Of a stretch of 64,000 bases of DNA, positions 1,916-57,843 are shown one piece after another (position 1 is the stretch's first letter; each line of letters begins with the position of its first letter). The stretch spans positions 1 through 64,000 of the forward strand of contig NBAZ01000028.1 in NCBI GenBank assembly GCA_002794735.1, in the 5' to 3' direction. The notes beneath the pieces were generated by a model that was not told the origin of the DNA, did not search any database, and saw nothing but the letters and a program-made list of their open reading frames with translations. This DNA comes from Pyrrhoderma lamaoense. Its lineage: Eukaryota; Basidiomycota; Agaricomycetes; Hymenochaetales; Hymenochaetaceae. The translations under genes were made by a program, and so were the position numbers.

Positions 1916-4900
1916 ATGATATCATACTACACACTTCGAGGTTTGTCTGAGTACATGTATATCAAGTGGACTTGAGTTAACTGTTTGCCCTCTCCTGGGA
2001 TCACGATCCGATATCTGAAAAATCTAAAGCGCTGTATAGATACTTAAGATCTCACTCGGGGAGCATAGTTTAGGAGCAATTTCTGTGAATGAGCTTCCGC
2101 CTCAGTGAAACGAGACATCTCCAGTGTACGATAAACTCAAATCGGTTCGACAAGACATCTTCTACCTTAGTACATGCTCAGACAATCATGCGAGATTCAC
2201 TATCAAACTAGAGAAGGGGACTTTGAAAGATAATAGTATCGGAAGTAAAGAATGCTCCTTGTAGTAGATATTCAGAAAGGATAACGAAGGTGGGACGTGA
2301 GAGGGGAATACAATCTTCTTCAAGGCTAAAAAATAGATACTTGTATTTCTCTGCAATCAAGGTCTGGGTCGTATTCGTTATCTTTATATCTTCGACCATC
2401 GGATAAAATGAAAAATGTCGACCTAACCCTCACGAACTTTGCAGCGATGACAGCTTTGTCAAAAAATCAGTATAAAATTTTGATACGGCAAAAAAGGTAG
2501 AGTGATGCTTGTTGATATTTTACGCGTATAAATCAATACTACTGCTTTTGTGGTGTATAGCAATAGTGTAGCAGATGTGAAGAACGTCGAGTTGTTTGAT
2601 AGCCGTAGTTTTGTTATCTAGAGGTACATAACGAAATCATCTTTATATAGTGAGATACATCATAGGGCAACCCATCTTGATACATTTCATATAGTATCTA
2701 TCTCTGTCGATGATCGCTACTCAGACAAGTATTGATAAGCGTATCAGAGAGCTAGGGTGTGATATTATGGGAATATTCTTAGTTATCGAGGAGACACCCG
2801 TTTTCGACAATCCGTCTAAATCCCTGTGTGTGATTATCACCGATGTCCTCGAATTTCATGATTTTTATTTTATTTAACTATGTAACAGTCCCATTCAACA
2901 GTATGCATGTGCACCTTTTTTCAGTAAGTAAGATGGATACATTTTAGATCTCGCGTATTATCTTATCTATCTTAAAAACCCATGTTATAACACGAAATAA
3001 GAAAATTACAATTGAGGACCTCGAGGCTACATCGGAAGGCTTGAGAAAGGGCATCCAGCCGACATGAAGTCTTAAGAGTTGAATCGAGAATCGGAGGGAA
3101 ATCAGTAAGATGATTCTAGAAATAGAAAATAGAAAGTAAGTGCACATTCATAGATATTAAACATACTTTGACAACCTAGCAGGGTTGATAGTGATTTTCC
3201 AACCCGTATTTGTGACAGATCTAGAGGTAAATCAGTCAAATTTCTATTCTTGTCAGCTGTGTTGACCATTTACAAAGAATCCGCTCATGGGTTAGCACAA
3301 GCTACGCCACGAGAATCGCGTACTCTGGTGTGGGAAAAATAACACGTCGAGGTCTGGGTGTGGACTGCGCTCACCGTCGAGAGCTTTTAAGAGCTATTTG
3401 TCAGATATTCAAGGGTATAATTTGTAGCCTTCTCTAGAGCTGGAAATGTATAAAATCTGGTTCTGATGATTAGATTGTTTGAATGTGAATGGAAAATGGT
3501 GAGTGTTGTGTGCCAGTCGAAGAACCGTTGAGAAGGCATTCAGGCCATATGAGATGTGTCATATTTTCACCTAATAGATGCTATACTGCATCAGGGTCAA
3601 AGGGTAGTGCTCATATTGTTTAGTACGTACTTTTATATAGCATAAAAATGATATCTGATCCGCTCAAAGCCTACTTAAGCAAGGCCGTCTCTATCGTTTT
3701 CTCTTGATAGCGAAAAAGTGCATCAGGCTCACAGAGTGACGATACTCATGTATGGGAAGAATCCGCTGGAGAGGTATTGGAGTCACTCTCCGAAGATGGG
3801 ATGGGCAACGTGATTTTGGTCGGAAGGTAAACATATTTTTCTGGATCTCGGTCCAATATAGTGAGAATGTGAAAAGCTGAAGACATTAAAGCATCTCCAG
3901 AAAGATTCTAAGGTCGCAGAAAGAAGGTCATGTCTGCTTCATACATGGCTGACTATTAGCACTACACTACGCCTCTGGGTCATTAGACGGGACAAATAGA
4001 GTATGGGATGTCGGAGGAGTGACGGATACGAAGATTAAGAGACAAACAGATTATATTCAGAGTAATTTAGATTTCTATACGATCCTACAAAAGATTTTTG
4101 CCTCTCGCACCAGCGGTTGCTCAGAGTGTGTCTGGAGTGTGCAAAGCGGAAACATATTGAAAGGTCATCTTAGTCTCAGTCTAGGTGGTTCAATCACATT
4201 AATATTTCTTCACCTGATAAATTTCATAGTGAGTCGGGATCGACAAATGTGGAAAATGATCGACGATAAATATATCATTAGTACTAGTTGTAACAACCGT
4301 GCTCGCTCGGTTGCTTTGTCGCCCACTGGCTTATATCTTGCTTTAGGCTCTGAAGATGAGTCAAACCGAGTACGAAACCTCTAAAGTGGCTCATCGCTGC
4401 TAGCTTCATGCACCCGGGCATACAGACTTGGTCCACTCGGTTTGTTGGATCCCTGGCGGAAAGGAAGTTGTCTCCGGTTCATGTAACCAAATAATTCGTA
4501 TATGGAATGCTTCGAATGGTAACCCGCTTGCCATCTACAGATGTCATTCTGACTGGTCCAACTCCACTTCACTCTCTCACGACGGATTACGTATCATATC
4601 TGGATCTGATAACAACATAACATGACTTTGGAACACTGGAGCCAGTCAAGCATCGCAGTCCTTTAAAAAGACACGTGGATAGTACATCCTCAGTTTTTTT
4701 TCTCCCGTTGGAAATTGGATTAATGAAGGATCATCTGACAAAAATTCTTGTATATGGGATGTGTCAATTGTCAGTCTCTTCTTTTAGGTACGTATCCTAT
4801 CAGATAGCTCCCCAGCCGCCTCTCTCCTCACCACTGAAACCAGATAGGTCAGGTTTCCGTCAAGCTCCATCTATGGGACAAACTACATTCCGTACATCAG

Positions 4901-5060: not shown

Positions 5061-6261
5061 CTGCTTTCATTCCACTTAATAATGAAGATTTCCAAAAAAA
5101 TACTGCCTTGATGTTATGAACCCGTCTGTAGCAATATCTATCTTTTATAATCTTTTTGCATTCCACCGCTCATGTTCTGTATCGTTTCATGCTTTAATTG
5201 TAATGACGATAGTAAGTCACGCCATTACTTTCTGCTACCTGATTCTCGTTCTTCCTTTGCTCTCTGAATTATTGCAGAAACCTCGTGATCGGGCTATTTA
5301 AGACGGCGATATCATATTCTAGCTCAGGAACCCTCTAATGTGAGTCAACAATCACTTCTTGCGCTGTTAACTTTGAGTAGAAATATCTAAGCAAAACACT
5401 AATGGGTGCGGTTACTTGGGGCCCTCGAAAACTAGTAATAATAATACTTGCTTCAGCTGATACATAGATATTATATTTACCTAATTTCTATACTTAAAAT
5501 CGCCAGAAACTAATATGATAATTTGAGATACAAGCCATTTTTAGGGGTGAAGTGTGGTAAAGTAGCGTGCCGAAATTATTATGCGTGAACGTTAGCTCTG
5601 GTTTTATCAATCGTGTTTCGGTCTCTCGAAAAATCTCAAGTAGATTTTATCTACTATCCTGCAGATGAATATGGCATATGGAACAAAGCCTCTTGAACAT
5701 AACTCCTGTCGGAAAATTATAGATCATCTAGTTTACTTTATTACTTTTTAGAGCTAATGTGATCTACGGCTATCTAAAAACATGTCGGTTATAAAATAAA
5801 CGATACTCTGAGCCGTGTTCGTTAGTTCTTGAATTGATATCAATTACATATATAAATAACACTATAAACAATCATCAATGACCCGGCCTAGACAAGGCAC
5901 TATTAAAAGTAGAGTTGATTTGCTTACTACATAATTCCAGCGCTACAGGAGTATAATCATCTTATAAGCCTTGATTTTGAAATATAGAAATATAGAAGAA
6001 TCAATGATTTCCAAGATGTCCAGCTCGCCGTTACTATCAGGAGAGAAGTAGCTTCGATAGCTTCTCACGATAACCTCGGAACCAATCTCACTATTAATGT
6101 AGAACATTATTTATCCTTTCAGAGACTGCTAATGATTGCTCCGACTAAGTCGTGGCTTCGCGTTTCTGATAGATCAGAAGCTAGGATTTTTATCTTAAGG
6201 GACTATCAGGATTGGGACTATGTTTCAGAAATTTGAACCTCATTGCTCAAAGTTCGTGTCC
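5061..6261. other. intergenic stretch, no gene seen
   Basis: AT-rich sequence between the decayed NLR copy and the first MFS gene. No frame here looks like a gene and I recognise no repeat. The last ~200 bp before 6262 would be the promoter of MFS copy 1. It differs completely from the sequence upstream of MFS copy 2, because the duplication ends about 10 bp before the ATG. Confidence 0.45.
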
Positions 6262-9216
6262 TACACTCCACTATGGCACAAAGTATCCATACCCTCCCTC
6301 TCCAAGATGTCTCTGAGATCACAAAGAAAGGTGATACGTATAATCCATACGATGAGCAGGCACTGCTCCAGCCTACGGTGCATGAAATCCTAAGTGCAGA
6401 CTCGGCCAAAAGGGATATTAGGGATACAAGCCCTCCGCCAAAAGACTTCAAGTTTTGGATGTGCATCATAGCTATTATGTTGTCTTCGTTTCTTATGATG
6501 CTCGAGATTGTATGTTAATTATTGATTATTTCGCACTATACTTACAAAAACATCACTAGGCCGGAATTGGTACAGCAACGCCAGTCATCATCGCCGAGCT
6601 TCATGGAGAACAATTTGAGTGGATCGGTAGTGCATACAGCTTGGCTGCAACAGCGTTTCTTCCTATGAGTGGTGCCCTTGCCCAGGTATATAGATATATC
6701 CTGTACGACTACTTCTTATTTCTCATTTTCTTCTTTCAATCAGGTCTTCGGCAGGAGATTAGTAATGCTTTCACAGATCTTCCTGTTTGCATTAGGTAGC
6801 GCTTTGTGTGGTGCTGCTACATCTCTCAATTTTCTGATAGCAGGACGAGGTGAACTTGATGTCTGTTAGTTTTAAAAGAGTCATTCTGTTGATCATCTCT
6901 CTACTTCAATTAGCCGTTCAAGGGGTGGGTGCGGCTGGAATAACATCACTATCACAGATTATTATTGCAGATCTTGTACCACTTCAGGAGCGTGGAACGT
7001 ATAATGGCCTTATTGCATTGTAAGCATCAACCATTACTACTACCTTCCAATCTGAGGCCTGTTTTGACCCATTTGTTATAGAGCATATGCATTTGGAACG
7101 GCCATAGCTCCTGTTGTATCTGGATCTTTAGCTCAGCATGGTCAATGGCGTTGGTTTTTCTGTGAGTTATTATATGGTATCAACGTACTTTCAATATTGA
7201 TTTTAATCATAAATACAACATTTTGGAGACCTGAATCTTCCTATCTGTGGTCTTACAGCTCTTATATCTGCAAAGTATCTTGATCTTAGGGTTCCTCATA
7301 GCTCAATAAAAGAGAAAATTCTTAAACTCGACTGGGTGTGAGTGGGGATCGAATATTCAGGTTCTTTCGGTGACATTTACGTTTCTAGGGGAAATATTCT
7401 TATAATTTATTTACCTCGGCTATCGTGTTAGCCTTAACATGGGGAGGAATAACGTACCCTTGGTCGTCTCCAAGAGTTCTTGTCCCGTTAGTTTCAGGAT
7501 TGGCCGGTGTGGCCATCTTTCTGGTATACGAAGCTCATGTAGCAACAGTACCACTTGTAAGCTGCATATGCTTCACACTCAAAAGCTGGATTTGACTCTA
7601 AGCGTAGGTTCCTCTGCAAATATTGTCTTCTCGAGAAACTATTGCTGGGTATATACAAGCATTTTTTGGTAACTTTTATCTACTTGGTATCATATGTGAC
7701 GTATCAAATTTACCCTACCCAATACCCAGTTTAGTCTAACTTTCCTTATAGTTTATCTTCCAAGTTATTTCCAGGCCTGCAAAGAGGCCTCTCCAACGCG
7801 ATCAGGTGTTGATATTTTCGGTCTTGCATTTACTATTATGCCATTTGGTATAGTGGCAGGGTTGAGTGTGGCTAAGTCTGGCAGATATCGCCCCCAGCTC
7901 TGGACAGGTTGGGTATCACTCATACTTGGTGCAGGCCTTCTCTCGATGCTTGATGTTGATAGCTCCACTGGAGAGCTGATTGGTTTCCAGATTTTCTCGG
8001 GTCTAGGATTGGGAATCATGCTTACAATATGCTTCTTCCCTGTGCTTGCTCCTCTCCCTCCTGAGTATAATGCAAACGCACTTGCATTCTTTATGTTCGT
8101 TCGCTGGTTCTCTCAGGTCAGTTTCATTTATCGAGTATTATCACTGAGATACTTTGCTTATTTGAAAATTCATGATAAGATTTGGGGTGTCACGGTCGGA
8201 GGGACAGTCCTTCAGAACCAATTAACGTCAAAACTACCATCAGAGTTCTTATCCAAGTTTCCAGGAGGCACTTCTGTCGCATACTCAATTATTCCAATCA
8301 TAAAAGATCTCCAACAGCCTTTGAAACATCAAGTTCAAGACGCATTCGCTGAGGGGTTGAGGACTTTCTGGCTTGTCTTGGTAGGGGTTGGTGCAGCTGG
8401 ACTTCTTTCAAGCTTTTTAATGGAAGGACTTCCATTGCACACCGCAATGGATGGAAAGTGGGGACTTCGAGAGCAAGAGCGTGCTGCATTCAAGGACCAA
8501 GTGGAAGTTTGACCGGTCTCTGACATTAGTAATCCTGATTGATCAAATAATACTACCTCCTTTATTATGTATGGTGTCAAGCAGAGAATATAATGATGTC
8601 AACGAGAGCTATGATTTGGTTTAAGTAAGCATCAATTGTATAAGATAGAGTTAAGGCAGTCATATCACGAAGTTTGTGACTATCTCTTCTCAATCCAGGA
8701 TGTTAACTCCGGCGTACAAGGTACATGTGTATTGTGTTGATATTAATATCTTCAAACAGATTGTGACCTCGCGCGTGTTTGAGGCATATATGTAACAATC
8801 AATCAAAGATATGAAGTACTTTAACTGTAGACACTTCATCCATGTGACATGGAGTACCACAGACTACTAGTGAATGTGGAATGGAAAGCTCTCTTCCCCA
8901 CGTCTACAGAGGAGTAAATTTTATCACACTCTTTCATGCTTTTATCTTCTATGTATCAGTGTGCTATAGTAACACGTATGTGAGTATACAATCAACACGT
9001 AGACAAGAAAAGTCATTCCACGCGTCTTTTCATCCGATTAGGGGCAATATGTAACCCAGATGGAATACGATCATCACAAAGAACTCCTTATAAATTCCAT
9101 CCCCGACGATATCGCATCACCTTTAGAACGATCATCTTTCTCTGAAAAGATTCAAATCATGGATCGAGCAGCTTACCAGAAGTAGCTCATACATTGGGAA
9201 GTATCATTTCGACTTG
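6262..9216 (+). repeat. left arm of a 2.95 kb near-identical inverted repeat
   Basis: This segment is the reverse complement of 21169-24123, with base x pairing with 30385-x and no gap over the whole length. The only differences I found by eye are single bases near the ends (e.g. T at 9202 versus C in the other arm). Identity starts about 10 bp before the MFS start codon (shared CACTCCACTATGG) and stops at 9216 (shared CATTTCGACTTG), about 700 bp past the MFS stop. The two arms are separated by ~11.95 kb. It includes a full spliced gene with introns, so it is a DNA-level segmental duplication, not retrocopying. Confidence 0.95.
6273..8512 (+). CDS. MFS transporter, multidrug/toxin-extrusion (DHA-type) family, copy 1
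   Basis: Ten exons read by eye: 6273-6509, 6560-6685, 6744-6849, 6914-7019, 7082-7161, 7229-7335, 7391-7547, 7608-7686, 7752-8116, 8180-8512. The product has about 560 residues and 12-14 membrane segments. Family motifs are present: AGIGTATPVI in the first helix, VFGRRLVMLSQ (loop 2-3 'GRR' motif), IAGR.VQGVGAAGI (motif C-like helix), LVPLQERG (cytoplasmic loop), ALTWGG and LPSYFQACK. Such proteins are proton-driven exporters of small molecules in the plasma membrane. The ATG at 6273 is followed by a soluble N-terminus (MAQSIHTLPLQDV) before helix 1. The joint near 7335/7391 is odd: the frame that stays open gives LDW-GKYSYN-LFTSA, whereas the family expects DWVGN..., which would need one extra base near 7405. 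Both copies share this. Confidence 0.9.
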
Positions 9217-13834: not shown

Positions 13835-14680
13835 CTAGAGAGATTCCCAATCTCCTGTTCCTGAATTAGGGTCCACTGCCCTGAACCCTAGATAACCCCA
13901 ATTGTGGCTGAACCATGTTGTGCGTTCACTCCACAAAGACCCTGAATGGTCCGTGCCGACCCAGCAGGCCACACGTTGTTCGGCATTGAAGTATTGGTGA
14001 TATCCCCACCGTATGTATCCAGGCACATCGATTAACTTGAAGTGATCGTAGACTTTCCTTGGTAGCTGATGGAGTAAGAGTATTCCCCACTCTGGGGGGT
14101 CCTTTGGTATCACTTGATAGTGAACCACACTACTGCTGCACTGTTCTTCGTGCTGGTGTCCCGTATGCTCCATATTCGTTAGGACTACAATCCTGACTTG
14201 ACCCCAGACCTTTTCTTTCCTTCTTAACTCCAAGAATGTAACATAGTGAAAGGTCCATACATCTTGCTCCCAGTGAGGGAATTCTCGGATAGAATCGTCT
14301 GTCCAGTACTTCTGTACTTGTACTGTAAACTCGGTAGCATCCACTCCCATTTCGAAGAGAGTTGTCCAAGTGATCCTGTAGAGGTCCAATTGTAACGAAT
14401 AAGTCTTCTTGCAATTAATACACCCTACCCTGGTCTGGTACCAGGGGACTCGTTCCACCTGACTGTGTACTTGAGATTCGCTAGTTCGTTCTGCTTCATG
14501 TACTGCTATACGAACACCTACGTCTCCTGTAGGATTTGGTAAGGTCCTAGTTTCTGACCTTTGCCGTGATTCTATCCAACCACGGACTTGATCCAGCAAT
14601 GGCTCTGCTGGCTGCGCATGTAGTCGTTCAAACACCGCAGGCCTTTCTTCATCTTGAGAGAGGACTTCCCTGTGTGACAT
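13835..14680 (-). CDS. orphan protein of unknown function, 281 residues
   Basis: Single uninterrupted minus-strand frame, ATG at 14680. I do not recognise the family. The N-terminal ~90 residues are polar and charged (ERLHAQPAEP, RQRSETRTLPN). Then comes one CXXC pair (VGCINCKK), and the rest is rich in aromatic residues (W, Y, F) spread evenly, e.g. WEQDVWTFHYVTF, VPGYIRWGYHQYF, SHNWGYLGF. No signal peptide or membrane helix is evident. Its GC content is visibly higher than the AT-rich neighbourhood and, unlike the host genes around it, it has no intron, so it may be the coding part of an undescribed mobile element. It could also be a fast-evolving host orphan. Confidence 0.55.
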   Translation of the reverse strand: MSHREVLSQDEERPAVFERLHAQPAEPLLDQVRGWIESRQRSETRTLPNPTGDVGVRIAVHEAERTSESQVHSQVERVPWYQTRVGCINCKKTYSLQLDLYRITWTTLFEMGVDATEFTVQVQKYWTDDSIREFPHWEQDVWTFHYVTFLELRRKEKVWGQVRIVVLTNMEHTGHQHEEQCSSSVVHYQVIPKDPPEWGILLLHQLPRKVYDHFKLIDVPGYIRWGYHQYFNAEQRVACWVGTDHSGSLWSERTTWFSHNWGYLGFRAVDPNSGTGDWESL

Positions 14681-15135
14681 GGCTGAGTTTGCTATTGTTC
14701 ATAATAGGCAGGATTTGCAGCTTCCTATATTTGGTTTGTGTTTGATCTCCAACCTAGCCGATGATCCGTGAATCTTCAAACCTCCAATCCCGTAACAACG
14801 TGATAGGAGCCGTAAAAACTTTAGCACCCTCCTGTAACAAGCTCAAAGCACCGATATTACCACAAAGATAGCTGCTGGGGAAATTCAGGCTTTTGTCACT
14901 CTGGTTAACGATGTAAGCTCTTATTTTGTACTGGCATAGGCCTTACTTCAACTTCTAATATTCACTCATGAAGTGGGCAGTTCTTTTCATGTTTTGCATG
15001 TGTGTATCAAGTTTATACCATTTTTTAGTTATGAGTTCATAATTCCCTTCAACATTTTTCTAAAGTGTAACATCAATGTGAGTGAGAAACAGTCTTGAAT
15101 ACGTTCATAGGTATAATCAAGCTATATTTTCAAAG
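14681..15135. other. intergenic, includes unresolved 5' exon of DUF6534 gene B
   Basis: Between the orphan gene and the first clear exon of the DUF6534 gene B. A possible upstream exon ends near 15077 before a GTGAGT donor (matching the place where gene A has its exon ending at 11693), but the frame that would join correctly meets a TAA, so the 5' end of gene B is either differently built or damaged. Confidence 0.35.
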
Positions 15136-19661: not shown

Positions 19662-20483
19662 CTAAGAGGAATGGCTAGTCCGCCATTCATACTGTGGATG
19701 GTCTGACGCTATGCTAGTTCTAGCATGGGCTGATGGATTGTTTCTGTCCCATTCTTCTCTTGGGAGAATAGTATTGATGTGTGGTAGTATAGGGCGTTCC
19801 CTATTAGGCATGACTGGTAATGGAGGGCTTTCTCGTTGTGGTATTACCGGAGGTGTAACTGGTTGAGCTCTGTTAAGAGTGATCCAATCTACTCTCTCGA
19901 ATCCTGGACGAGGAGTTTTATTATAAGTTTCATATATCATTCCTCTCCACAGTGTGTGCATTCGCATTGCAAAGTGATTTGTCTCCTTTTCATCTATAGT
20001 CATTATGCCTGGTCCTCGTAGTGCAAAGCTTTCGTCTGTAGCTCTGATTACAGATATACGAATTGCTTCCTTGATTTCTTCTGAAGCTTGCTTGTGTAGT
20101 ATAACACATATTGAGGATGCTACTAGAATTGGTTCTCCATGATTCCTAGCATCTAGCATTGCTTCGGAGCGAACTTGTAGTTCAGGTTGATCGGGGTATA
20201 TGCCTTTGAATGGTTCTTCTAACCAAAGGTGGTTCTGTACCCTTGTTATGTTATGCAAGGTGGTATCGTACGGATAATTGTTTGTATGCATATCAAACCA
20301 TCCGTAGTTATTATAGTACCTCCAATCTTCCTTCTGGGTCTTGATTAAGGCCTTAGTTATTCGTATGGCCATATTGTTACATATCTCTTCCATCTCCTGT
20401 ATAGTTCTATAACAGGTATGGCATATGTTCTGGGGTCTGTCCTGGCTAGTTGATGAGCCTCGTGTGACCTCGTTATTAGACAT
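19662..20483 (-). CDS. orphan protein of unknown function, 273 residues
   Basis: Single minus-strand frame, ATG at 20483, no intron. I do not recognise a family. There is an N-terminal CXXC (NICHTCYRTIQEMEE) beginning a helix, a middle region with many aromatic and charged residues (KEDWRYYNNYGWFDMHTNN), a helical part (ASSICVILHKQASEEIKEAI) and a proline-rich C-terminal ~70 residues (QPVTPPVIPQRESPPLP). That layout of a folded part followed by a proline-rich tail resembles Gag-like or regulatory proteins, but nothing decisive is visible. The GTGGCAC cluster lies ~190 bp beyond its 3' end, so it might belong to a mobile element. Confidence 0.5.
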   Translation of the reverse strand: MSNNEVTRGSSTSQDRPQNICHTCYRTIQEMEEICNNMAIRITKALIKTQKEDWRYYNNYGWFDMHTNNYPYDTTLHNITRVQNHLWLEEPFKGIYPDQPELQVRSEAMLDARNHGEPILVASSICVILHKQASEEIKEAIRISVIRATDESFALRGPGIMTIDEKETNHFAMRMHTLWRGMIYETYNKTPRPGFERVDWITLNRAQPVTPPVIPQRESPPLPVMPNRERPILPHINTILPREEWDRNNPSAHARTSIASDHPQYEWRTSHSS

Positions 20484-21168
20484 GATGTAAGCGCTTTATA
20501 ATCGTTATTGGTAAGCCTAAAGTTTGGAAATCCTAACATGCATCACATATAGATGACTGAGAGCAGTTGGCAAGCTTTCACCCTTGGTATCAAACCTTCC
20601 ACTTTCTGACATACTTAAGAGTGACCAATGGTAAGAAGAGTTAATAGAAGACACTGATATGAGAAAGTATGGTATAGACGTACATTTTGGCGGTAGACCA
20701 AAGAGCTTGAAGCATGTAGGAGTAAAGTTGTAATGTTTGAAGTGATATCAAATGATATCGCTTATGCATATTAGCGAGGCTACGCACTATGCTACCTTCC
20801 GAGACAAGAACAATCCTAAATCAGCATAAGAAGAGTCCTTGAGCTGTGAATCATGTTTTAGCTAAGCAAATCTTTAAACCTAGATAAAGCATGGCTGATG
20901 AATAAATTTTTCATATACCAATACTGATAGAAATCGCAAATTTTGATGATCTGGATCGGAGCTTATAGACTAAGGAATATAGTACCATAACTCTCTGCTT
21001 GATAGAGCACCCCGAACAGTATCAAGGGTCAAAGCGGAGGCTTTACACGCCACTGTTTGAGCTGATTGCGCTTATAGGTGCAATATTACTGTGTGGCACA
21101 AGGCCAATATAGAGAATCATGATTATGATAGGAACTTTGTTATCAGCTATACATTTCAAAGTATATCT
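20484..21168. other. intergenic stretch up to the right inverted-repeat arm
   Basis: About 690 bp, AT-rich, no gene or repeat recognised. It carries the promoter side of the minus-strand orphan gene. Confidence 0.4.
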
Positions 21169-24123
21169 CAAGTCGAAATGATGCTTCCCAATGTATGAGC
21201 TACTTCTGGTAAGCTGCTCGATCCATGATTTGAATCTTTTCAGAGAAAGATGATCGTTCTAAAGGTGATGCGATATCGTCGGGGATGGAATTTATAAGGA
21301 GTTCTTTGTGATGATCGTATTCCATCTGGGTTACATATTGCCCCTAATCGGATGAAAAGACGCGTGGAATGACTTTTCTTGTCTACGTGTTGATTGTATA
21401 CTCACATACGTGTTACTATAGCACACTGATACATAGAAGATAAAAGCATGAAAGAGTGTGATAAAATTTACTCCTCTGTAGACGTGGGGAAGAGAGCTTT
21501 CCATTCCACATTCACTAGTAGTCTGTGGTACTCCATGTCACATGGATGAAGTGTCTACAGTTAAAGTACTTCATATCTTTGATTGATTGTTACATATATG
21601 CCTCAAACACGCGCGAGGTCACAATCTGTTTGAAGATATTAATATCAACACAATACACATGTACCTTGTACGCCGGAGTTAACATCCTGGATTGAGAAGA
21701 GATAGTCACAAACTTCGTGATATGACTGCCTTAACTCTATCTTATACAATTGATGCTTACTTAAACCAAATCATAGCTCTCGTTGACATCATTATATTCT
21801 CTGCTTGACACCATACATAATAAAGGAGGTAGTATTATTTGATCAATCAGGATTACTAATGTCAGAGACCGGTCAAACTTCCACTTGGTCCTTGAATGCA
21901 GCACGCTCTTGCTCTCGAAGTCCCCACTTTCCATCCATTGCGGTGTGCAATGGAAGTCCTTCCATTAAAAAGCTTGAAAGAAGTCCAGCTGCACCAACCC
22001 CTACCAAGACAAGCCAGAAAGTCCTCAACCCCTCAGCGAATGCGTCTTGAACTTGATGTTTCAAAGGCTGTTGGAGATCTTTTATGATTGGAATAATTGA
22101 GTATGCGACAGAAGTGCCTCCTGGAAACTTGGATAAGAACTCTGATGGTAGTTTTGACGTTAATTGGTTCTGAAGGACTGTCCCTCCGACCGTGACACCC
22201 CAAATCTTATCATGAATTTTCAAATAAGCAAAGTATCTCAGTGATAATACTCGATAAATGAAACTGACCTGAGAGAACCAGCGAACGAACATAAAGAATG
22301 CAAGTGCGTTTGCATTATACTCAGGAGGGAGAGGAGCAAGCACAGGGAAGAAGCATATTGTAAGCATGATTCCCAATCCTAGACCCGAGAAAATCTGGAA
22401 ACCAATCAGCTCTCCAGTGGAGCTATCAACATCAAGCATCGAGAGAAGGCCTGCACCAAGTATGAGTGATACCCAACCTGTCCAGAGCTGGGGGCGATAT
22501 CTGCCAGACTTAGCCACACTCAACCCTGCCACTATACCAAATGGCATAATAGTAAATGCAAGACCGAAAATATCAACACCTGATCGCGTTGGAGAGGCCT
22601 CTTTGCAGGCCTGGAAATAACTTGGAAGATAAACTATAAGGAAAGTTAGACTAAACTGGGTATTGGGTAGGGTAAATTTGATACGTCACATATGATACCA
22701 AGTAGATAAAAGTTACCAAAAAATGCTTGTATATACCCAGCAATAGTTTCTCGAGAAGACAATATTTGCAGAGGAACCTACGCTTAGAGTCAAATCCAGC
22801 TTTTGAGTGTGAAGCATATGCAGCTTACAAGTGGTACTGTTGCTACATGAGCTTCGTATACCAGAAAGATGGCCACACCGGCCAATCCTGAAACTAACGG
22901 GACAAGAACTCTTGGAGACGACCAAGGGTACGTTATTCCTCCCCATGTTAAGGCTAACACGATAGCCGAGGTAAATAAATTATAAGAATATTTCCCCTAG
23001 AAACGTAAATGTCACCGAAAGAACCTGAATATTCGATCCCCACTCACACCCAGTCGAGTTTAAGAATTTTCTCTTTTATTGAGCTATGAGGAACCCTAAG
23101 ATCAAGATACTTTGCAGATATAAGAGCTGTAAGACCACAGATAGGAAGATTCAGGTCTCCAAAATGTTGTATTTATGATTAAAATCAATATTGAAAGTAC
23201 GTTGATACCATATAATAACTCACAGAAAAACCAACGCCATTGACCATGCTGAGCTAAAGATCCAGATACAACAGGAGCTATGGCCGTTCCAAATGCATAT
23301 GCTCTATAACAAATGGGTCAAAACAGGCCTCAGATTGGAAGGTAGTAGTAATGGTTGATGCTTACAATGCAATAAGGCCATTATACGTTCCACGCTCCTG
23401 AAGTGGTACAAGATCTGCAATAATAATCTGTGATAGTGATGTTATTCCAGCCGCACCCACCCCTTGAACGGCTAATTGAAGTAGAGAGATGATCAACAGA
23501 ATGACTCTTTTAAAACTAACAGACATCAAGTTCACCTCGTCCTGCTATCAGAAAATTGAGAGATGTAGCAGCACCACACAAAGCGCTACCTAATGCAAAC
23601 AGGAAGATCTGTGAAAGCATTACTAATCTCCTGCCGAAGACCTGATTGAAAGAAGAAAATGAGAAATAAGAAGTAGTCGTACAGGATATATCTATATACC
23701 TGGGCAAGGGCACCACTCATAGGAAGAAACGCTGTTGCAGCCAAGCTGTATGCACTACCGATCCACTCAAATTGTTCTCCATGAAGCTCGGCGATGATGA
23801 CTGGCGTTGCTGTACCAATTCCGGCCTAGTGATGTTTTTGTAAGTATAGTGCGAAATAATCAATAATTAACATACAATCTCGAGCATCATAAGAAACGAA
23901 GACAACATAATAGCTATGATGCACATCCAAAACTTGAAGTCTTTTGGCGGAGGGCTTGTATCCCTAATATCCCTTTTGGCCGAGTCTGCACTTAGGATTT
24001 CATGCACCGTAGGCTGGAGCAGTGCCTGCTCATCGTATGGATTATACGTATCACCTTTCTTTGTGATCTCAGAGACATCTTGGAGAGGGAGGGTATGGAT
24101 ACTTTGTGCCATAGTGGAGTGAA
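21169..24123 (-). repeat. right arm of the 2.95 kb near-identical inverted repeat
   Basis: Reverse complement of 6262-9216, colinear without gaps. The arm contains the second MFS gene complete with all introns, plus ~700 bp of its 3' flank. The two genes point toward each other (tail to tail). Confidence 0.95.
21873..24112 (-). CDS. MFS transporter, multidrug/toxin-extrusion (DHA-type) family, copy 2
   Basis: Exon for exon the mirror image of the gene at 6273-8512; every exon I compared gives an identical protein, so the description of that copy applies. The ATG is at 24112. Upstream of it the sequence is unrelated to that of copy 1 beyond about 10 bp, so the two identical proteins must have different promoters. 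An in-frame longer reading upstream (to about 24208) exists here only, and I do not favour it because copy 1 lacks it. The copy also carries the same questionable exon joint near 22980. Confidence 0.9.
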
Positions 24124-24610
24124 GGATACAAGGTCTAGGGTAATATTGATTAAGAATGAGTGTCACGTAAGATTTGGAATGTGTGAAGTGAGGCATGTTA
24201 TAAGCCATTCTTAGCTGCTGTGACTAATGCTATCATTGTAACGAGATAAATAGTAATGATGAACATCACTGCTAGCACCTGTACGAATCAAGTTGTGGGT
24301 TATATGTAGAATCACCGGAATTTGGCGCGAGAATGTGAAGCCACTGATTACTGTTTCATAAGAATGATTCGGAGATACTACGGTGACCTAATATTAAAGG
24401 TATGGGAGTTTACTAATAAAAGACCTAAATATCACAGCATCAAGCTTGAGTTGGGTTGGAAGTGATTTTCGCTGTGAACTAATTTCACCAAAAACTTGAT
24501 TTATAGAGCGCCTCAGGTAATCAATCTATAAAGGTAAACAGTGCACATGCGTTTCTTGCTCCGCCACTATAGGTGAGCTCGGTGCACTATTAATGGGCTG
24601 AGAATGCCAC
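24124..24610. other. intergenic stretch, no gene seen
   Basis: About 490 bp between MFS copy 2 and a NACHT fragment. It includes the unique promoter of MFS copy 2. No other feature seen. Confidence 0.4.
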
Positions 24611-49236: not shown

Positions 49237-52200
49237 TGCCTATATTTTACACCCTTCGAGGTTAGTTTTCAAGTACTCTATGGTTTTAGCCATCTCTCTA
49301 ATTGTTCCTCCTACTAGTTTCACGTTCCGATTTATCCCTGCCATCTAAAGCAAAAGCTTCAGATATATACGTCAAAATCTCCTTTGGGGATCAGAGCTTC
49401 AGAACGAGATCTGTAGATGATCTACCACTTACGTGGAACGAGACCTTTCCGATGTTTGTTTATCAATCAGTTAAACTCGCATCTGTATGAGAGCTAATTA
49501 TCCTCTGAATAAGCACGTGTGCAGACACTGGGACTAGACTCATGATTGAATTGAAGAGAGAGTCCTTCACTGGGAGTAAACGTAATGGGTATGGGGTATG
49601 CGCCATAAGTGATCTGCTTGTTGAGAGCGAGAATAGTGAAGGTATGCATTACGTAATATCTATCCTCGATTAAACACTGATAATTGACAAGCAGATGTTT
49701 CCATTTCTCTGCATTCAAAGTTCAAATCAGGACATTCAATTTTCTTACGTATTCGACCATCGGATAAAATGAAGAACGCTGAAATCACTCTCATCAATCT
49801 TGCTCGCGCCCTCCTTAACATTCATACCCCTGATCATGACGACTTTGTGGAGAATACCAACGCAATATATGATACGGCAAAGCGCGTAGCAGAGAGCAAG
49901 GCATGCCAATCATTGGTGGAAGTAGGCTATACTATCACTGCCTTTGTTGACTTTGGAAATAATATAGCAGACGCGAGTAACTTCAAATTTAGTGTTGTCC
50001 TTTATTTCCGTGTTGACTAGATCATTCACAGGCAAGCCCATTCCTGAAAGTAGCGTGGTCTATAACATCAGCGTTCTTGAACGTGAGTCTCAATCAAGGG
50101 ACAACGTTATCAAAAATAACATATTCAATTTTAATAGATCATCGCTACCCAGATCAGCACCGACAAAGGGATCAGGGAGCTTGTGAAGAATCTGATGGAC
50201 TTATTCTTGGTTATTAGGGATACATCCATTTTCAATAACCAGTCTGATTCTTTGCGCTTAATCATCATCGATCTCTTCCAGTTTATCACTGAGTTCAGCA
50301 AATTCATACAAGACTATGCACGAAAGAGTTTTATTCGTAAGTTAATAGGAGAGTGTGACCTACCTCGCGTACTGATCGGAGGGTGTTTTTAGTCCGTGCG
50401 GTTTTGCAAAACAAGAGAGCTGTATTTGTTCACCTAGAAACTACGCTAGCAAGTTTGAAGATAGACCTAATATCGGCGTTTGAGAGACAGGGAACTATTG
50501 AAGCGGAAATAAGGGCACTTAGAAAAGGTGAGCTTGAATCCGAAGGCCTAAAACATTGAAAAATTGACAAATTATGCACTATAGACTTGGAATTAAAGCT
50601 CCAGCCGAAGCACGAAAGCGGGGGTAACCGCCAAAGATGCCTAGAAGGGACGCGTACCGGGCTATTGGAAGAGATTGATGATTGGATGCAAGATGTTAAT
50701 ACATCTAATGTGTTCTTTCTTCTTGGTCATGCGGGGACTGGAAAGAGTACGGTCGCTACAACAGTCGCAGAGAAATATGAGACTCTGAAACAACTGGGAT
50801 CGCGTCAATACTTTTTGAGAGGGAAAAGTGATCCTTCCTTCATCTTCCGCACTATCGCATACGGCCTAGCAAGGCAGAACCAAGCACTTGCTCAGATAAT
50901 TAGAACAAAGCTTGACGAAAACGAGCTGGAAACTGCTACACCGGACAGAGCCTTTGAGATCTTGCTGCACGAGCCACTTCATGCACTTGTGAAGAAAGAA
51001 GGTGGGAGCGGTAATATTATCACCGTTCTTGACGCACTAGACGAGTGCGGAAGTGGAGAGCCCCGAGAACCATATATCAGACTGATAAAAGAGAAGTTGA
51101 GACAACTACCACCCAACTATCGCTTTCTTATCACCAGTCGACCGGAAAGAGACGTTTCATCATTCGGGGAGTTAGAGCAACTGGGGGTACGCTACAAATG
51201 GCTAGATCATGATTCAGAAGATGCCAAGAAGGACGTGCGTAACTACATCCAAACCAGGCTTTTAGAATTGAAGGCAAAGCGTGGATCGGAAGTAAACCCA
51301 GACTGGCCACAGGCGAGTGATATGAACGCCCTAGGAAATGCTGCGGGTGGTCTTTTCATATGGGCATCAACTGCTGTGAGGATCATTGAGTACGGACAAG
51401 ACATGGGAGGTGAACTCAAGCGTCTAGTGACTACAAGATCTCTGTCCCTTGAAAGGTTGTACGAAGATGCACTCGCCCATGCTCTGACTTGGAATGAAGC
51501 CACGATAGCGTGCTTTTCGAAAATTTTCTCGCTGATTATGTTCGGTAAAGAACCATTAACGGCCACAGAGATAAGCGGTTTACTAGGGATTGATTGTGGG
51601 AAGATACAGGGTATTCTTAACTCACTACGCTCGATAGTCGCGTTTGAGCCCAAACAACCAGTCCGCTTATATCATACGTCGCTACATGACTATCTGACCT
51701 CGGAAAGGGCGTATGGAAAGGCATGGTTCATTGACGAAGAAAAGGAGAAAGGGTATATCTCGCTGCGGTGCTTCAAATTGATGGAGAGGCTGCGGTTCAA
51801 TATCTGTAATTTAGAGACATCATACAAGTTAAATAAGGATGTACCTGGACTCGAGAGGCGAGTAAAGGACAATATCTCTACGTCACTATTATATGCCTGT
51901 CTCCATTGGGCTTCACATTTGCGGGAGGTCCCATATTCAGAAGATTTATCCAATCAAATCGAGTCTTTTGCGTACGACAGATTACTGTATTGGATCGAAG
52001 CCCTCAGCCTTTCTGGCTCAGTATACGCTTTCCTTTTGCCATCACTCGAGAGTGCCCTTACTTGGATAGGGGTGAGTTGCTCTATGTTAGTTTCTGATAA
52101 TAACTAACGTCTACGTAGGATGGATGCTCACAAATTTTCATATTCTTTCAAGACGCTTACGATCATCTCCTCAGATTCATTGAACCAATTTCTCATTGTA

Positions 52201-53749
52201 CCCCCCATATATACATGTCATTCCTCCCGTTAATGAAAGAGAGCTCCATCTTCGCCAAACACTACGCCAAGCGTGCGAAATCATTAACATATATCGCGCG
52301 TATTGATACCAGGCCACAAATGGCATGTACTATGGAACTAGTTGATGACGATTCCATATATTCTGTCTCATGCTCTCCTGATTTTACCTACCTTGTATCG
52401 GGATTACGGGGTAATGTTCTTAGCATGTGGGATACATGTACTGGTAAACGACTCCACGAATTACAGGGCCATTTGGGCTGTGTTATGAGCGTTGCATACT
52501 CTCCTGATGGACACTATATTGCATCGGGTTCTACAGATAAGACGGTACGGGTATGGAGTACTTTTTCTGGCCCGAGTAGGACACTTGCCGGCCATTCAGA
52601 CACAGTCAATTCTGTCGCATTCTCTGCAGACATGAAATACCTAGCATCAGGTTCTGACGACTTTACCGTCAGGCTATGGAATAGATATAGTTTTGAGCCA
52701 GTCGGGGAACCATTGAAAGGGCATTCGAATTGTGTGAAAAGTATCGTGTTCTCATCCAATTTACGCTACCTTGCTTCAGGATCATCGGATTGCACTATTA
52801 TTGTCTGGGACGTGGAAAAAAGAGTCAAGGCCTTCGACCCATTTAGAGGCCATACAGGCCCAGTCAATTCCCTGTCGTTTTCTCCAACCAGAGATGAAAT
52901 CACATCCGGGTCACAGGATTGCACTGTTCGTGTATGGGATGTGTCGACTGGAAAGGTAGTGGAGACGTTCTCTGGAGACGGTATGAAAGGTGTAAACTCG
53001 GTTGCGTACTCTGATGACGGCAAATATATTTTGTCGGGATCTGCTGATATGATAGTAAGAGTGTGGAATGCGGAAAACAGCGGTATCCCGCCGCAAAGAT
53101 ACGAAGGCCACACGGGCGTTATAAGGTCTGTCTCATCTACTTACAACATGCGTTTTGTTTCTGGGTCAGATGATGGGACGATTAGAGTCTGGGACATGAG
53201 AGGGCTCGAGAGAGTCAAAGAAGGTAGTATATGTGGAATTGCAGTTTCCCCCAAACCGGAAAATATTTTGTCCTCAGCTCCTACGAATACACAGTGAGTG
53301 TGTATGATACGGAGAGCGGAGATTTAGTTAAAGGTCCTTTACATGGACATTGGGCTTGGGTTACGTCAGTTGCGTTCTCATCCGATGAAATCCACTTCGC
53401 TTCGGGTTCAAATGACAGATCGATACGAATATGGAATATGATCGACGACAGAGTTATCACATGCAACGGTCACACTGACTGGGTTCTCTCACTCGCTTTT
53501 TCTCCTGACGGCTCTCGTCTTGCTTCAGGCTCTCGAGACAAGTCAATCCGAATATGGGACGTCAAAGATGGCTCGCTGGCAACAAAACCATTCATTGGGC
53601 ACACGAACAATGTCTACTCAGTTTGTTACTCTCTTGATGGAAGGAAAATTGCCTCCGGATCAGCCGATAGAACTGTCCGTGTTTGGGATGCTTCCAATGG
53701 AGATCTACTTTCTACTTTTGAAGGACACAAAAGTGAGGTCAACTCTATT

Positions 53750-56700
53750 CACCGCGTGTTTGTGTAACTTAGGCCATGTCTACGTAGGTAAATGTAGATT
53801 ATATAGTCAAACCTAGAATGACTATCAACGAATCCTGGGATTACATGTTTGCCCAAGTAGCGCCTGTCATCTACCCGACCGTAGTCTATATCATCTGTAG
53901 TGTGTAGTTCTAGAGGTAGCTCTTGGTTATTCTAGATAATATATATGTTTTTCTTACATGTAGTTACATGTATTCTTATATATATTTTTACTTATATTTA
54001 CATGTATGCCCAGGTTTTACCATGTATGATCTGGTTTATCCGGGTATTTATTTGTAAACTTACATGTATATCTATATAATTCTTACTGGTATTTCTATGT
54101 AAAACCGTAATCAACTTCCCACTTGCTGCATCCCACATGCAGACTTCATTGTCCCATATAATAGAAACGATACGGGTTCCGTCTGGAGAAAATGATAACC
54201 CTCTTAAGTCCTCGTCTCCGCTTTTGATGACTTTAATGACTGCGCTTCGTTGCCTATCCCCAATGTACTCAATATATGCAATTGGATTGGCATACTTCTT
54301 GTAGTGCATTGATACCACAGATTCGTCTCTGGTGAGGGGTAGAAGACTGCAATAGATATGGGGCGTGCTTCTTGAAATGGTTAGTTGACAAGTATTGGAC
54401 GAGTATAATAATCTTAAGTAAAATAGATTTACCTTTCGTGCTTGACATTTTCAAAAGATGCAACTAAGTCGGACGAAGAACCAGGGAAAGTTGAAGAAGC
54501 TCCACGAGAAGGAGTTTGACTCTCATATGCCTGCTGATTTTGTTGTTGGACTGAAGGAGATGCGGAAGACATCCGTTGAGGAGGAACACCGATGGCGGAT
54601 AGCCCTGGCCCTTGTTGATCCGGTGCTTGTAATACTTTGACGCCTGGAGGAAATGGGGTTGCGATGTTGCTATGGGTGGTATAGGTGAAGGTGCGGAAGA
54701 AGTTCTATTTGCCTGCTGTAATTGATGCGGCAAAGGGGAAGGCACAGATGGCTGCTGTGCTTGAGTTGAAGGAGACGGCAAATCTACAGCCAAACTCGTA
54801 GGATGCAGCTCGTTTGTATGTTGCTGATATCTTTCGTTGAGTAATCGATCTTAAGAAGACAAAGGAGAGAGAAATTACAAACATTTGGTAGGGACGCCGA
54901 AGGAGCTACAGGCGAAGGAGTAGACCCTAAAGATAGGTGCGTATTAACGAAAAATACTTGAAGAATATCGCAAGGGGTATACCTGATGGGATAGTTGTTT
55001 GCTGAGGAACCGTATTTGAAGGGGGGACAGCTTCAGAGATTTCAGGAGATTGAACCTGTGAATGAGACGACTCATCTGCTGCAATCCCTGAAGCAGATGC
55101 AGATGACAACAGAGGACTAGGCCCTGATGCCGATGCTTGCGTAAGACTGGGAGAGGATGATGCGACATCATGCACACTTGAGTGGGTAGTCGATGCTGTC
55201 GTTCCTATAGGCGCTGACCCATTACTGATTGAAGCAGATACACTCGTAGAAGTTGGGGTCGAAGTCGAAGGTGCCGAAGCGCCACTAACAGCAGTAGCAT
55301 AGCGAACGGGTAATGCGGCTGGTGGTCGAGGTGGTAAGCCATTCTTTACCACACTGGACATATGAGAATGTACTGGCTTGTCGATATGCATCTCTGAGGA
55401 ATGCAGATAACTCGGGGTTATTGTTCTTTTGTGCGTTAGCCTAGAAAAATAGAGAATTGATATGCAACGCTTACCCCAAGCCATGAGATTGCATACGTCA
55501 ATGCAGTGCCAACATGGTCATCGAACGTATCCGTGAGGCTCAATGCCTCAAACCAAAATAGAAGTTTGTTTAATGCAAATGTCTTCAAGGAATCACCCAG
55601 TTCGGGTGAGTATGACGTATCCTGAATATGATGAGCCCAGTAACAGCATATGTACCTCAGATGCTTTGGAATGTTCCTCTCGATGCGTTTCTGGAGATCA
55701 GAAACCTGCTTATTGAATAAGAAGGATGACTCAAGATTGCAGATATTGAAGCAGAGTCAATATGCCAACGACTCCCTACGCAAGACACCAAATAATCATA
55801 AAATGACGTGTGGTGTATCTTGACTGGCTGACCCGATCCGTATGATACCAACGATCGAAGACAAGAGAGTAGCTCTCTTGTTGTTCTTGGATCAATGTCT
55901 AGGATCCCGTCGATGTCCTCATCCGATAGTGGAGACTTTCCAAAGAAAATGAGCGAAAATACGCTTGAAAAGAGTGTCTGTGTCTCTTCATCCCACTTGA
56001 ACGAACTCTCTAATACAGTCACATATAACTCGTTCAAGTCCGGTGCTCTCGCGTTGTTCACCAATCGATTCAGACGCGCAATGCGTCTTATCTTTCCCTC
56101 AAACACAAACTTGACTGCTGTAGATTCCCAAATGAACAATTCATTTGCAGCCTCTCCAAGTTTCTCCACATTGTCGTCCCATGGCCAGTCACCTGGCAGT
56201 TTCACACTGTTTCTTCACAATCTGAATTCGTGATTGATATAAGTACGGACATCCTTCTTGTTGCCGTTTGTGGCGTCATTCAAATTGATTTTGTATGCTT
56301 TAAGTGACTGCGAGAATGACACAATGTCACTCGGGACGTCCTGTGATAAGGAAACGGAAGTTGGGAGGTAATCCAGTGAGCCCTTCTCCCAAGACGCGGA
56401 GGAGAGCGTGTCTGGTCTGGGATGTTCCGCATTCATCAAGAGCGTCAAGAACAACGAGGACAGTATGTTGTACGTGACTGGTAGAGAGTGGCTCTTTAAC
56501 ATGGATATTGAATTGGGTTTGGAGTGTCAGCGAGGTCAATTCACCACGGCTCTGAGGAAACATGGGCATACCTGTAATTACACTCAAAAAAATATTTACA
56601 GGTCAGTCTAGATGTTAACAGGTAATACATACGCCTTGGTTATTCCAGGCTACCTAGAACATCTAGATAAACCTAGGTTGACAGTTACGTAGGTTTGGCC

Positions 56701-57023
56701 TACAGGTCAACCTAGATATTACCGGCCTAGGTTTACGCATGGCACCTAGGTTACATAGAAATACATAATACAACACGAAACACAATATTATTTACATGTC
56801 GGTCCAGAGTTAAAATTACACAAAAATTCAGGTATACTCAGGTATGCTCATATTTTCTAGATTCATACTATAATACCTAGACAAACATGTTAGCCTAGAT
56901 GTTGTTGATATAGTTGTCTAGGTAATATTTTACATGTTTATTAGATAAACTAGGAATAGATGGGACGACATGTATTCTAGACGAACTATTACGCGTCGCG
57001 TAGAAATTTGTTGACACGCCGTG
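53750..57023. mobile_element. 3274-bp non-autonomous transposon (CACTA-like ends) carrying NLR fragments
   Basis: The left end CACCGCGTGT and the reverse complement of the right end CACGGCGTGT form a 10-bp inverted repeat (9/10). A 3-bp ATT duplication flanks the element (53747-53749, 57024-57026). Removing it with one ATT rejoins GTC AAC TCT ATT GCT TAC TCC, i.e. VNSIAYSPDG, exactly the expected WD-repeat core. Both ends are rich in short subterminal motifs (ACATGTA, CCTAGGTT, TCTAGA). CAC ends, 3-bp duplications and subterminal repeats are features of CACTA/CMC elements. No transposase is visible; the interior is a piece of a foreign NACHT-WD40 gene. The superfamily call is inference. Confidence 0.85.
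53990..56590 (-). pseudogene. captured fragment of a divergent NACHT-WD40 gene inside the transposon
   Basis: Minus-strand order: Walker B region (VLVVLDALDECGTSQTRHAL, then LPPNFRFLITGRPE, 56480-56330), NACHT C-terminal part (WPWDDNVEKLGEAANELFIW, FSLIFFGKSPLSDEDIDGIL, QPVKIHHTSFYDYL, 56205-55800), a long Ser/Thr/Ala/Pro-rich linker (55480-54460), then the first WD repeat (LSFSPDGTRIVSIIWDNEV, 54240-54140). It stops before further repeats and lacks the P-loop and N-terminus. It is clearly from another NLR lineage than the host gene: the low-complexity linker between NACHT and WD is absent from every other copy in the window. Frame changes show it is not a working gene. Confidence 0.8.
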
Positions 57024-57843
57024 ATTGCTTACTCCCCCGATGGACTCTATATCGTCTCTGGATCTTGTGACAACACTGCTCGAGTCTGGAATGCCGAAAC
57101 TGGCTGTGCAGTATACGATGATGTTACATTTCATTCTCACAGTGTGACCTCAGTATGCTTTTCTCCTAATGGAAAGTGGATAATTTCAGGATCAGATGAT
57201 AAAACTATAAATGTATGGGAGGCGTCAAGTGGAGATCTTTTCTTTCAAGCTCCTGTTCCATTACCTGCTATTTCTGTTGCCTCTATCCCCACTCCTGATA
57301 GTAAATATATCAAATTTGCCTCAATTTCTCGTGACGGTGAAACTTATTTTTGGTCCGTAAATATCGAGTCAAAGGGGGGGAAATGGCGTCTTGAAAGTGG
57401 TAAATGGCTTACTGGAAGTAACGGTGAATTACTTATGTGGATGCCCTCAAATATCCGTCGCTTCCTTTCAAATAATTCGCACACGCCGACTTCACGCTTT
57501 GCAACAAAATTACAATTATCAGCTTATCTAGGAGACCAATGGACTAAATGTTTTCCCTCTTGTAACTCGCCTTCATAATGTAACAAATTTTGTCTATACT
57601 GTTATCTGTGTTATAATACTTTTCAATTTTTCTTCTACACCTGTATCACATAAAATTACCAATGATAAATCTGACAGAATTTTGCTCCTTTCGTATGCTA
57701 TTGTTTTATCTAGATTTTCTGTGCTAATTAGAAAAAGATGTAGATTATGACTGCACATTTACCACCAGTTTATCGATTAAGAAGTTTGATGATCAGGGCA
57801 TTTATATCCCCATAATATTCATAATCTGGATTGTTCATTGTAG

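Follow-up and report, generated by a model that had tools for sequence, protein, structure and literature searches.

The 3,274-bp insertion at positions 53750-57023 of the window is very probably a non-autonomous EnSpm/CACTA (CMC-type) transposon of the Pack-CACTA type in a fungus, carrying copied NLR and NOT3/5 DNA and present at five or more places in the genome. The assembly contains both further copies with the same ends and a transposase-bearing relative of CACTA type, and it is thus as a fungal Pack-CACTA-type element that the insertion is interpreted here. The window is the whole stretch of 64,000 nucleotides that was analysed (C28:1-64000), from an assembly of 30.65 Mb in 72 contigs, which are designated by C and a number.

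The element within its host gene

The element is located in a NACHT-linker-WD NLR gene with Pfam matches to NPHP3_N (3.9e-22), NACHT (9.2e-8) and WD40 (7.2e-73). The closest NLR relatives with a name include those of Pyrrhoderma, Fomitiporia and Sanghuangporus. Removal of the element together with one copy of the flanking ATT restores the frame across the site and yields the unbroken WD repeat VNSI/AYSPDG (the stroke marks the insertion point), and the WD region of the host gene appears to have been broken by the window copy. The main features are as follows.

50560-53749, plus strand: upstream part of the host NLR gene, comprising NACHT (50560-52104 region) and those WD repeats that precede the insertion
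53747-53749: ATT target duplication, left copy
53750-57023: element, very probably non-autonomous EnSpm/CACTA-type, judged by its ends, its duplications and its copies on C5, C35, C1 and C8
53750-53759, plus strand: left terminal inverted repeat, CACCGCGTGT, 9/10 against the right end
53750-54108: left arm, type A, 90% identical to the C8 copy, 72% to C5 and C35, 71% to C1
54110-54378, minus strand: captured NLR piece covering the linker and the beginning of the WD repeats, 94% identical to a relative on C44
54377-55362, minus strand: captured NOT3/5 piece (CCR4-NOT subunit), 98.2% identical to C4:1390577-1391560
55363-56558, minus strand: captured NLR piece covering C-terminal NACHT plus linker, P-loop missing, 91.6-92.4% identical to the best relative of each segment
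55756-55757: site of a 58-bp coding deletion (59 bp relative to the C8 copy)
56551-57023: right arm, joined to the NLR piece at the common TCTGA
57014-57023, minus strand: right terminal inverted repeat
57024-57026: ATT target duplication, right copy
57027-57578, plus strand: last WD repeats and C-terminal end of the host NLR gene (WD40, 3e-20)

The termini are short CAC..GTG inverted repeats that match at nine of their first ten bases and diverge beyond, and the ends read CACNGCRTGT. The two arms have GC contents of 35% and 36%, against 46% in the cargo, and are enriched in ACATGT (5+4 occurrences observed vs ~0.5 expected) and CTAGGT (1+9 vs ~0.5), neither of which occurs in the cargo. Repeated subterminal motifs are typical of EnSpm/CACTA elements. 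Between the ends, the three cargo frames scanned gave no Transposase match. The preliminary description had read this stretch as a transposon without visible transposase that carries pieces of one NLR gene inside another, bounded by imperfect inverted repeats and an ATT duplication, with AT-rich subterminal motifs and a WD repeat that closes on excision; each of these points holds, and the central one is strengthened by the additional copies and by the divergence between cargo and host NLRs described below.

Two other features of the window were observed. The host reading frame shifts once more at ~53228-53297, in overlapping frames apart from the element, and this may reflect either a genuine lesion or a fault in the assembly. 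Moreover, positions 6256-9216 and 21169-24129 form an inverted repeat pair of 2,961 nt, 100% complementary with ~12 kb between the arms, each of which holds a 270-aa frame with weak MFS similarity.

Copies and a transposase-bearing relative

A whole-assembly search (93 matches; the best 40 of 74 first-look candidates scored) found four further copies of the element, of which one is interrupted.

C5:620815-624125: full-length copy, duplication ACT
C35:98179-101491: full-length copy, flanks AAT and ATT, which do not match
C1:2686913-2690226: full-length copy, duplication AAT
C8:207032-211879: interrupted copy, duplication ATT

Exact 3-bp duplications accompany four of the five cargo copies and, with the larger element described below (C28:104892-121647), five of the six places at which both ends are present, C35 being the exception. 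The preliminary description had asked for further copies that share the ends and have 3-bp duplications; those on C5, C1 and C8 answer to this, and the one on C35 has the ends and no duplication. A chance inverted repeat is rejected because the element is multicopy. In the 1.5-kb flanks of the C35 copy an NLR gene lies on one side and no NLR similarity on the other, which points to an assembly join or to a rearrangement that went through the element. Mirror-image flanks, CCAAT..ATTGG, were also seen in this region (C35:96677-102992).

The C8 copy lies in a repeat that has an insert-free relative at ~C3:15571-15670, where the target is single-copy (CATCGG vs CATTGG). This copy carries a 1,508-bp LTR-like insert with TSD CATGT, one reading of which resembles, by eye, window frame 19662-20495. 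Its decay is mainly C-to-T at CpG, at 81/226 sites vs 51/1,061 where C stands before A, T or C (6/45 where the context is undetermined), which suggests methylation-linked mutation.

Searches with the ends also revealed a larger element at C28:104892-121647, ~48 kb from the window copy, flanked by ATT on both sides and located within a WD repeat of another NLR gene (IITC/NDHTSWV). It is 98.4% identical to the C5 copy over the left 366 bp, 98.6% over the inner right 358 bp and 98.2% over the outer right 114 bp, and to the window copy 97.4% over element positions 2810-3168 and 93.4% over the last 106 bp of the right arm. The right arm of the larger element is split by a Gypsy LTR element whose 450-bp LTRs are 99.6% alike. 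Transposase exons lie on the minus strand at ~C28:108.2-111.8 kb; four of them, joined by hand, match Transposase_21 (PF02992) at 8.6e-13, with 48.4 bits against a cut-off of 28.6, and no other Pfam family at E <= 0.01. Hence a CACTA-type element sharing the ends and encoding a tnp2/Transposase_21-type transposase, which had been proposed as a check, does exist. PF02992 is present in 16 of 22 homologues of this transposase (E <= 0.001), and the named homologues come from Obba, Sparassis, Sanghuangporus, Mycena, Amylocystis, Suillus and Austropuccinia. Judged by eye, a stop probably lies further downstream in the frame.

A search with the transposase protein found four pieces in this element; beside the C8 copy, where family fragments lie, it gave two more, both decayed. 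Another open frame of the larger element matched only itself and C3, which holds a decayed relative in pieces of 71-90% identity with an undefined left end; an orphan right end was found on C9. A genome-wide profile search for PF02992 returned no match in this assembly and none in 14 controls either. Two side observations belong here. The decayed stretch C3:13855-15090 resembles, by eye, window frame 13835-14698, a repeat protein without Pfam match, and C58:13462-20560 is a 99.8% duplicate of C28:115000-122100 that breaks off at the outer boundary of the Gypsy LTR, for which a haplotype variant and recombination at the LTR are alternatives.

The C58 duplicate and the mismatched C35 flanks would suit an origin in which segmental duplication, or an error of assembly, produced the five occurrences. 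However, similarity stops exactly at the terminal repeats, the flanks differ at all five places, four of them have exact 3-bp duplications and an insert-free site related to that of C8 exists, so that this origin has a near-negligible probability. Transposition is instead the history to which the copies, the duplications and the insert-free site point. The transposase of the larger element, or of a relative, would then move the copies in trans, as suggested by their number and their common arms. The larger element is the only transposase-bearing relative found and, being split by Gypsy and probably interrupted by a stop, may represent a past source or the kin of the actual one.

Fungal EnSpm elements are described as having CAC..GTG ends and 3-bp duplications, with a catalytic D-D-E and C(2)C and H(3-4)H motifs as the transposase criterion (PMC12730594). 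Since Plavaka transposases are recognisably similar to those of EnSpm (PMC12730594) and gene-capturing Helitrons occur in Pleurotus (PMC4289320), membership in Plavaka, KDZ (Kyakuja-Dileera-Zisupton) or Helitron, kinds common in basidiomycetes, was also weighed. Nevertheless, CAC..GTG ends with a 3-bp duplication fit neither PlavakaA (TGT..ACA, 2 bp) nor PlavakaB (CATCA..TGATG, 2-3 bp), and both ends and duplication length differ from Zisupton (8 bp) and Kyakuja (7 bp, no inverted repeats) (PMC12730594). Helitrons lack the inverted repeats and target duplications present here (PMC4289320), and the transposase of the relative matched Transposase_21 exclusively at E <= 0.01. These classes were rejected, and membership in any of them is extremely improbable.

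Origin of the composite cargo and probable exchange of the left arm

Host coding DNA with its sources elsewhere in the genome occupies the space between the arms. Over positions 361-629 and 1614-2809 the element runs colinear with members of an NLR family located on C30, C44, C57, C14, C27 and C68. Among the 22 loci compared, the best identities over four segments (94.4, 92.4, 92.2 and 91.6%) come from different members each, and thus the exact donor was not found. Members of this family recur at ~8-kb steps on the same contigs, like a large tandem array. Positions 628-1613 (986 bp) are NOT3/5 DNA; in the C4 source, the matching piece is preceded by the Pfam domain Not3 (2e-35) and followed by NOT2_3_5_C (8.7e-24), which identifies the source gene as the CCR4-NOT subunit NOT3/5. 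The minus-strand NACHT-linker-WD fragment reported in the preliminary description is therefore correct as to its NLR part, while the cargo is a composite whose NOT3/5 piece had been missed. In the six strongest aligned stretches, cargo and host NLRs have 41-57% amino-acid identity and, on this comparison, are members of different subfamilies.

The junctions show 0-5 bp of microhomology. The NLR-to-right-arm junction lies in a common TCTGA, and where the NOT3/5 piece enters the NLR sequence it replaces six NLR bases, the common sequence being AT at one border and 0-1 base at the other; in the aligned genomic NLR loci, which lack it, the two NLR pieces are directly adjacent. Both the NLR and the NOT3/5 pieces retain intron-like stretches, which argues for copying at the DNA level. 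Capture from mRNA was rejected on the same ground and because, on inspection, the 58-bp gap falls in coding sequence. Capture may have proceeded through template switching, or through gap repair, at short common sequences. For multicopy animal Pack-TIRs the model put forward is template switching at replication forks with subsequent transposition (PMC8277862), and the junctions and copies would fit such an order of events.

Alignment and inspection place the start of the NLR piece after the P-loop. Relative to genomic relatives, the 58-bp deletion is present in the window, C5 and C1 copies and, by aligned lengths, in C35, and is absent from C8; it shifts the frame and is thus common to four of the five copies. 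The NOT3/5 piece runs in the same sense as the NLR pieces on the cargo strand and, by inspection, follows the NLR out of frame. Given the absent P-loop and the frameshifting deletion in four of five copies, the cargo probably encodes no working receptor, and it would be a passenger pseudogene.

Compared segment by segment, the window, C5, C35 and C1 copies agree in their cargo at 97.6-100% identity, yet between the window and C5 copies the identity of the left arm is as low as 72%. C5, C35 and C1 instead have left arms 97.8-99.2% identical to that of the larger element, whereas the window and C8 copies share type A. Beside the cargo, C5 retains a stretch of ~38 bases from the window-type arm that is similar to C3 but not to the larger element. 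From these alignments we infer that the left arm was exchanged after capture. In the simplest order, capture would have occurred beside a type-A arm (the C8 state), followed by the 58-bp deletion (the window state) and by a switch to a type-B left arm in the lineage ancestral to the C5, C35 and C1 copies; the events may also have occurred in the reverse order.

Implications for NLR genes and comparison with known systems

Same-ended elements with different captured genes, which the preliminary description had anticipated, did not appear: no second cargo came to light when the right arm and each type of left arm were used as queries in searches that score the best candidates and require close similarity, and all five copies hold the same composite. 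A search with the short end pattern gave 30+30 matches vs 28+28 in the control. Leaving the window copy aside, NLR flanks occur at two of seven family places, on both sides of C28:104892 and on one side at C35, and are absent at C5, C1, C8, C3 and C9. NLR genes are numerous in this genome (84 NACHT stretches scored among 360 candidates), and thus these flanks do not support an insertion preference for NLRs.

Carriage, spread and disruption are supported by these data. The shuffling of NLR domains into new receptors is a hypothesis, since a single cargo was found, truncated and frameshifted. It might be thought that the element is a working vehicle that delivers NLR modules into genes of other subfamilies and forms new receptors, perhaps preferring NLR clusters: the window copy and C28:104892-121647 both lie in NLR WD repeats, one C35 flank is an NLR gene, and the two kinds of captured pieces share one sense. 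However, only one cargo was found, few family places are NLR-flanked in a genome with many NLR genes, the cargo lacks the P-loop, has its frame shifted in most copies and holds NOT3/5 out of frame, and in the window it is antisense to the host gene, making this proposal very unlikely. A broader EnSpm/CACTA traffic between NLR subfamilies, with pickup by template switching, end exchange with transposase-bearing relatives, preferred landing in NLR WD regions, repeated carriage of parts and occasional new receptors, is likewise speculative and very unlikely. The reading retained is that of a Pack-CACTA-type element with a passenger cargo.

Gain, loss and mixing of fungal NLR modules are mostly discussed as recombination among repeats (PMC4986451), and the available parts of PMC12258605 and PMC4986451 treat repeat exchange and genome defence in fungal NLRs and not transposon capture. 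Among the titles and abstract openings covered, a scope outside which most subscription journals fall, EnSpm/CACTA elements with NLR pieces are unreported in fungi. The present case consists of a DNA transposon that holds a piece of one NLR subfamily and a CCR4-NOT piece at five places, one of them inside an NLR of another subfamily. Its base-level junctions, the nearby transposase-bearing relative and the variation of one arm among the copies make capture, end exchange and spread directly testable in a fungus.

Transposon gene capture is known elsewhere, and the present element is an unusual fungal case of it. Fungal hAT elements have captured and amplified histone H3 (PMC3538342; PMC6710886). 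They are likewise fungal DNA transposons amplifying a captured host gene, with copies decayed by mutation in some species, but the system is hAT rather than EnSpm and involves one housekeeping gene, and in Pyrenophora a larger form also keeps its transposase. The Pleurotus Helitrons provide another gene capture in a basidiomycete, in this case by rolling-circle elements, and the text of that report contains none of the terms NACHT, WD40 and NLR (PMC4289320). The fungal EnSpm families with TET/JBP share the ends, the 3-bp duplications and an EnSpm-like transposase, yet they carry a TET/JBP gene together with their transposase, and the accessible text mentions no NLR or NOT3/5 fragments (PMC12730594). 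Animal Pack-TIRs resemble the element in breakpoint microhomology and in multicopy spread after capture, in animal hosts, and the main text of that study does not contain the word fungi (PMC8277862). Among plants, the soybean CACTA transposon Tgm-Express also mobilises host gene fragments, for which alternative splicing is reported (PMC1947982). A close likeness in form is found in the plant Pack-CACTA and Pack-TYPE elements, non-autonomous carriers of host gene pieces, often from more than one locus, that are moved by a related transposase, the maize Pack-CACTA holding the most distinct loci among Pack types (PMC8903248). The element described here shares with plant Pack-CACTA the CACTA-type ends, the host gene pieces and the lack of autonomy, and differs from them in its fungal host, its CACNGCRTGT ends (against CACTACAA in Arabidopsis), its NLR and NOT3/5 cargo and its visible left-arm exchange.
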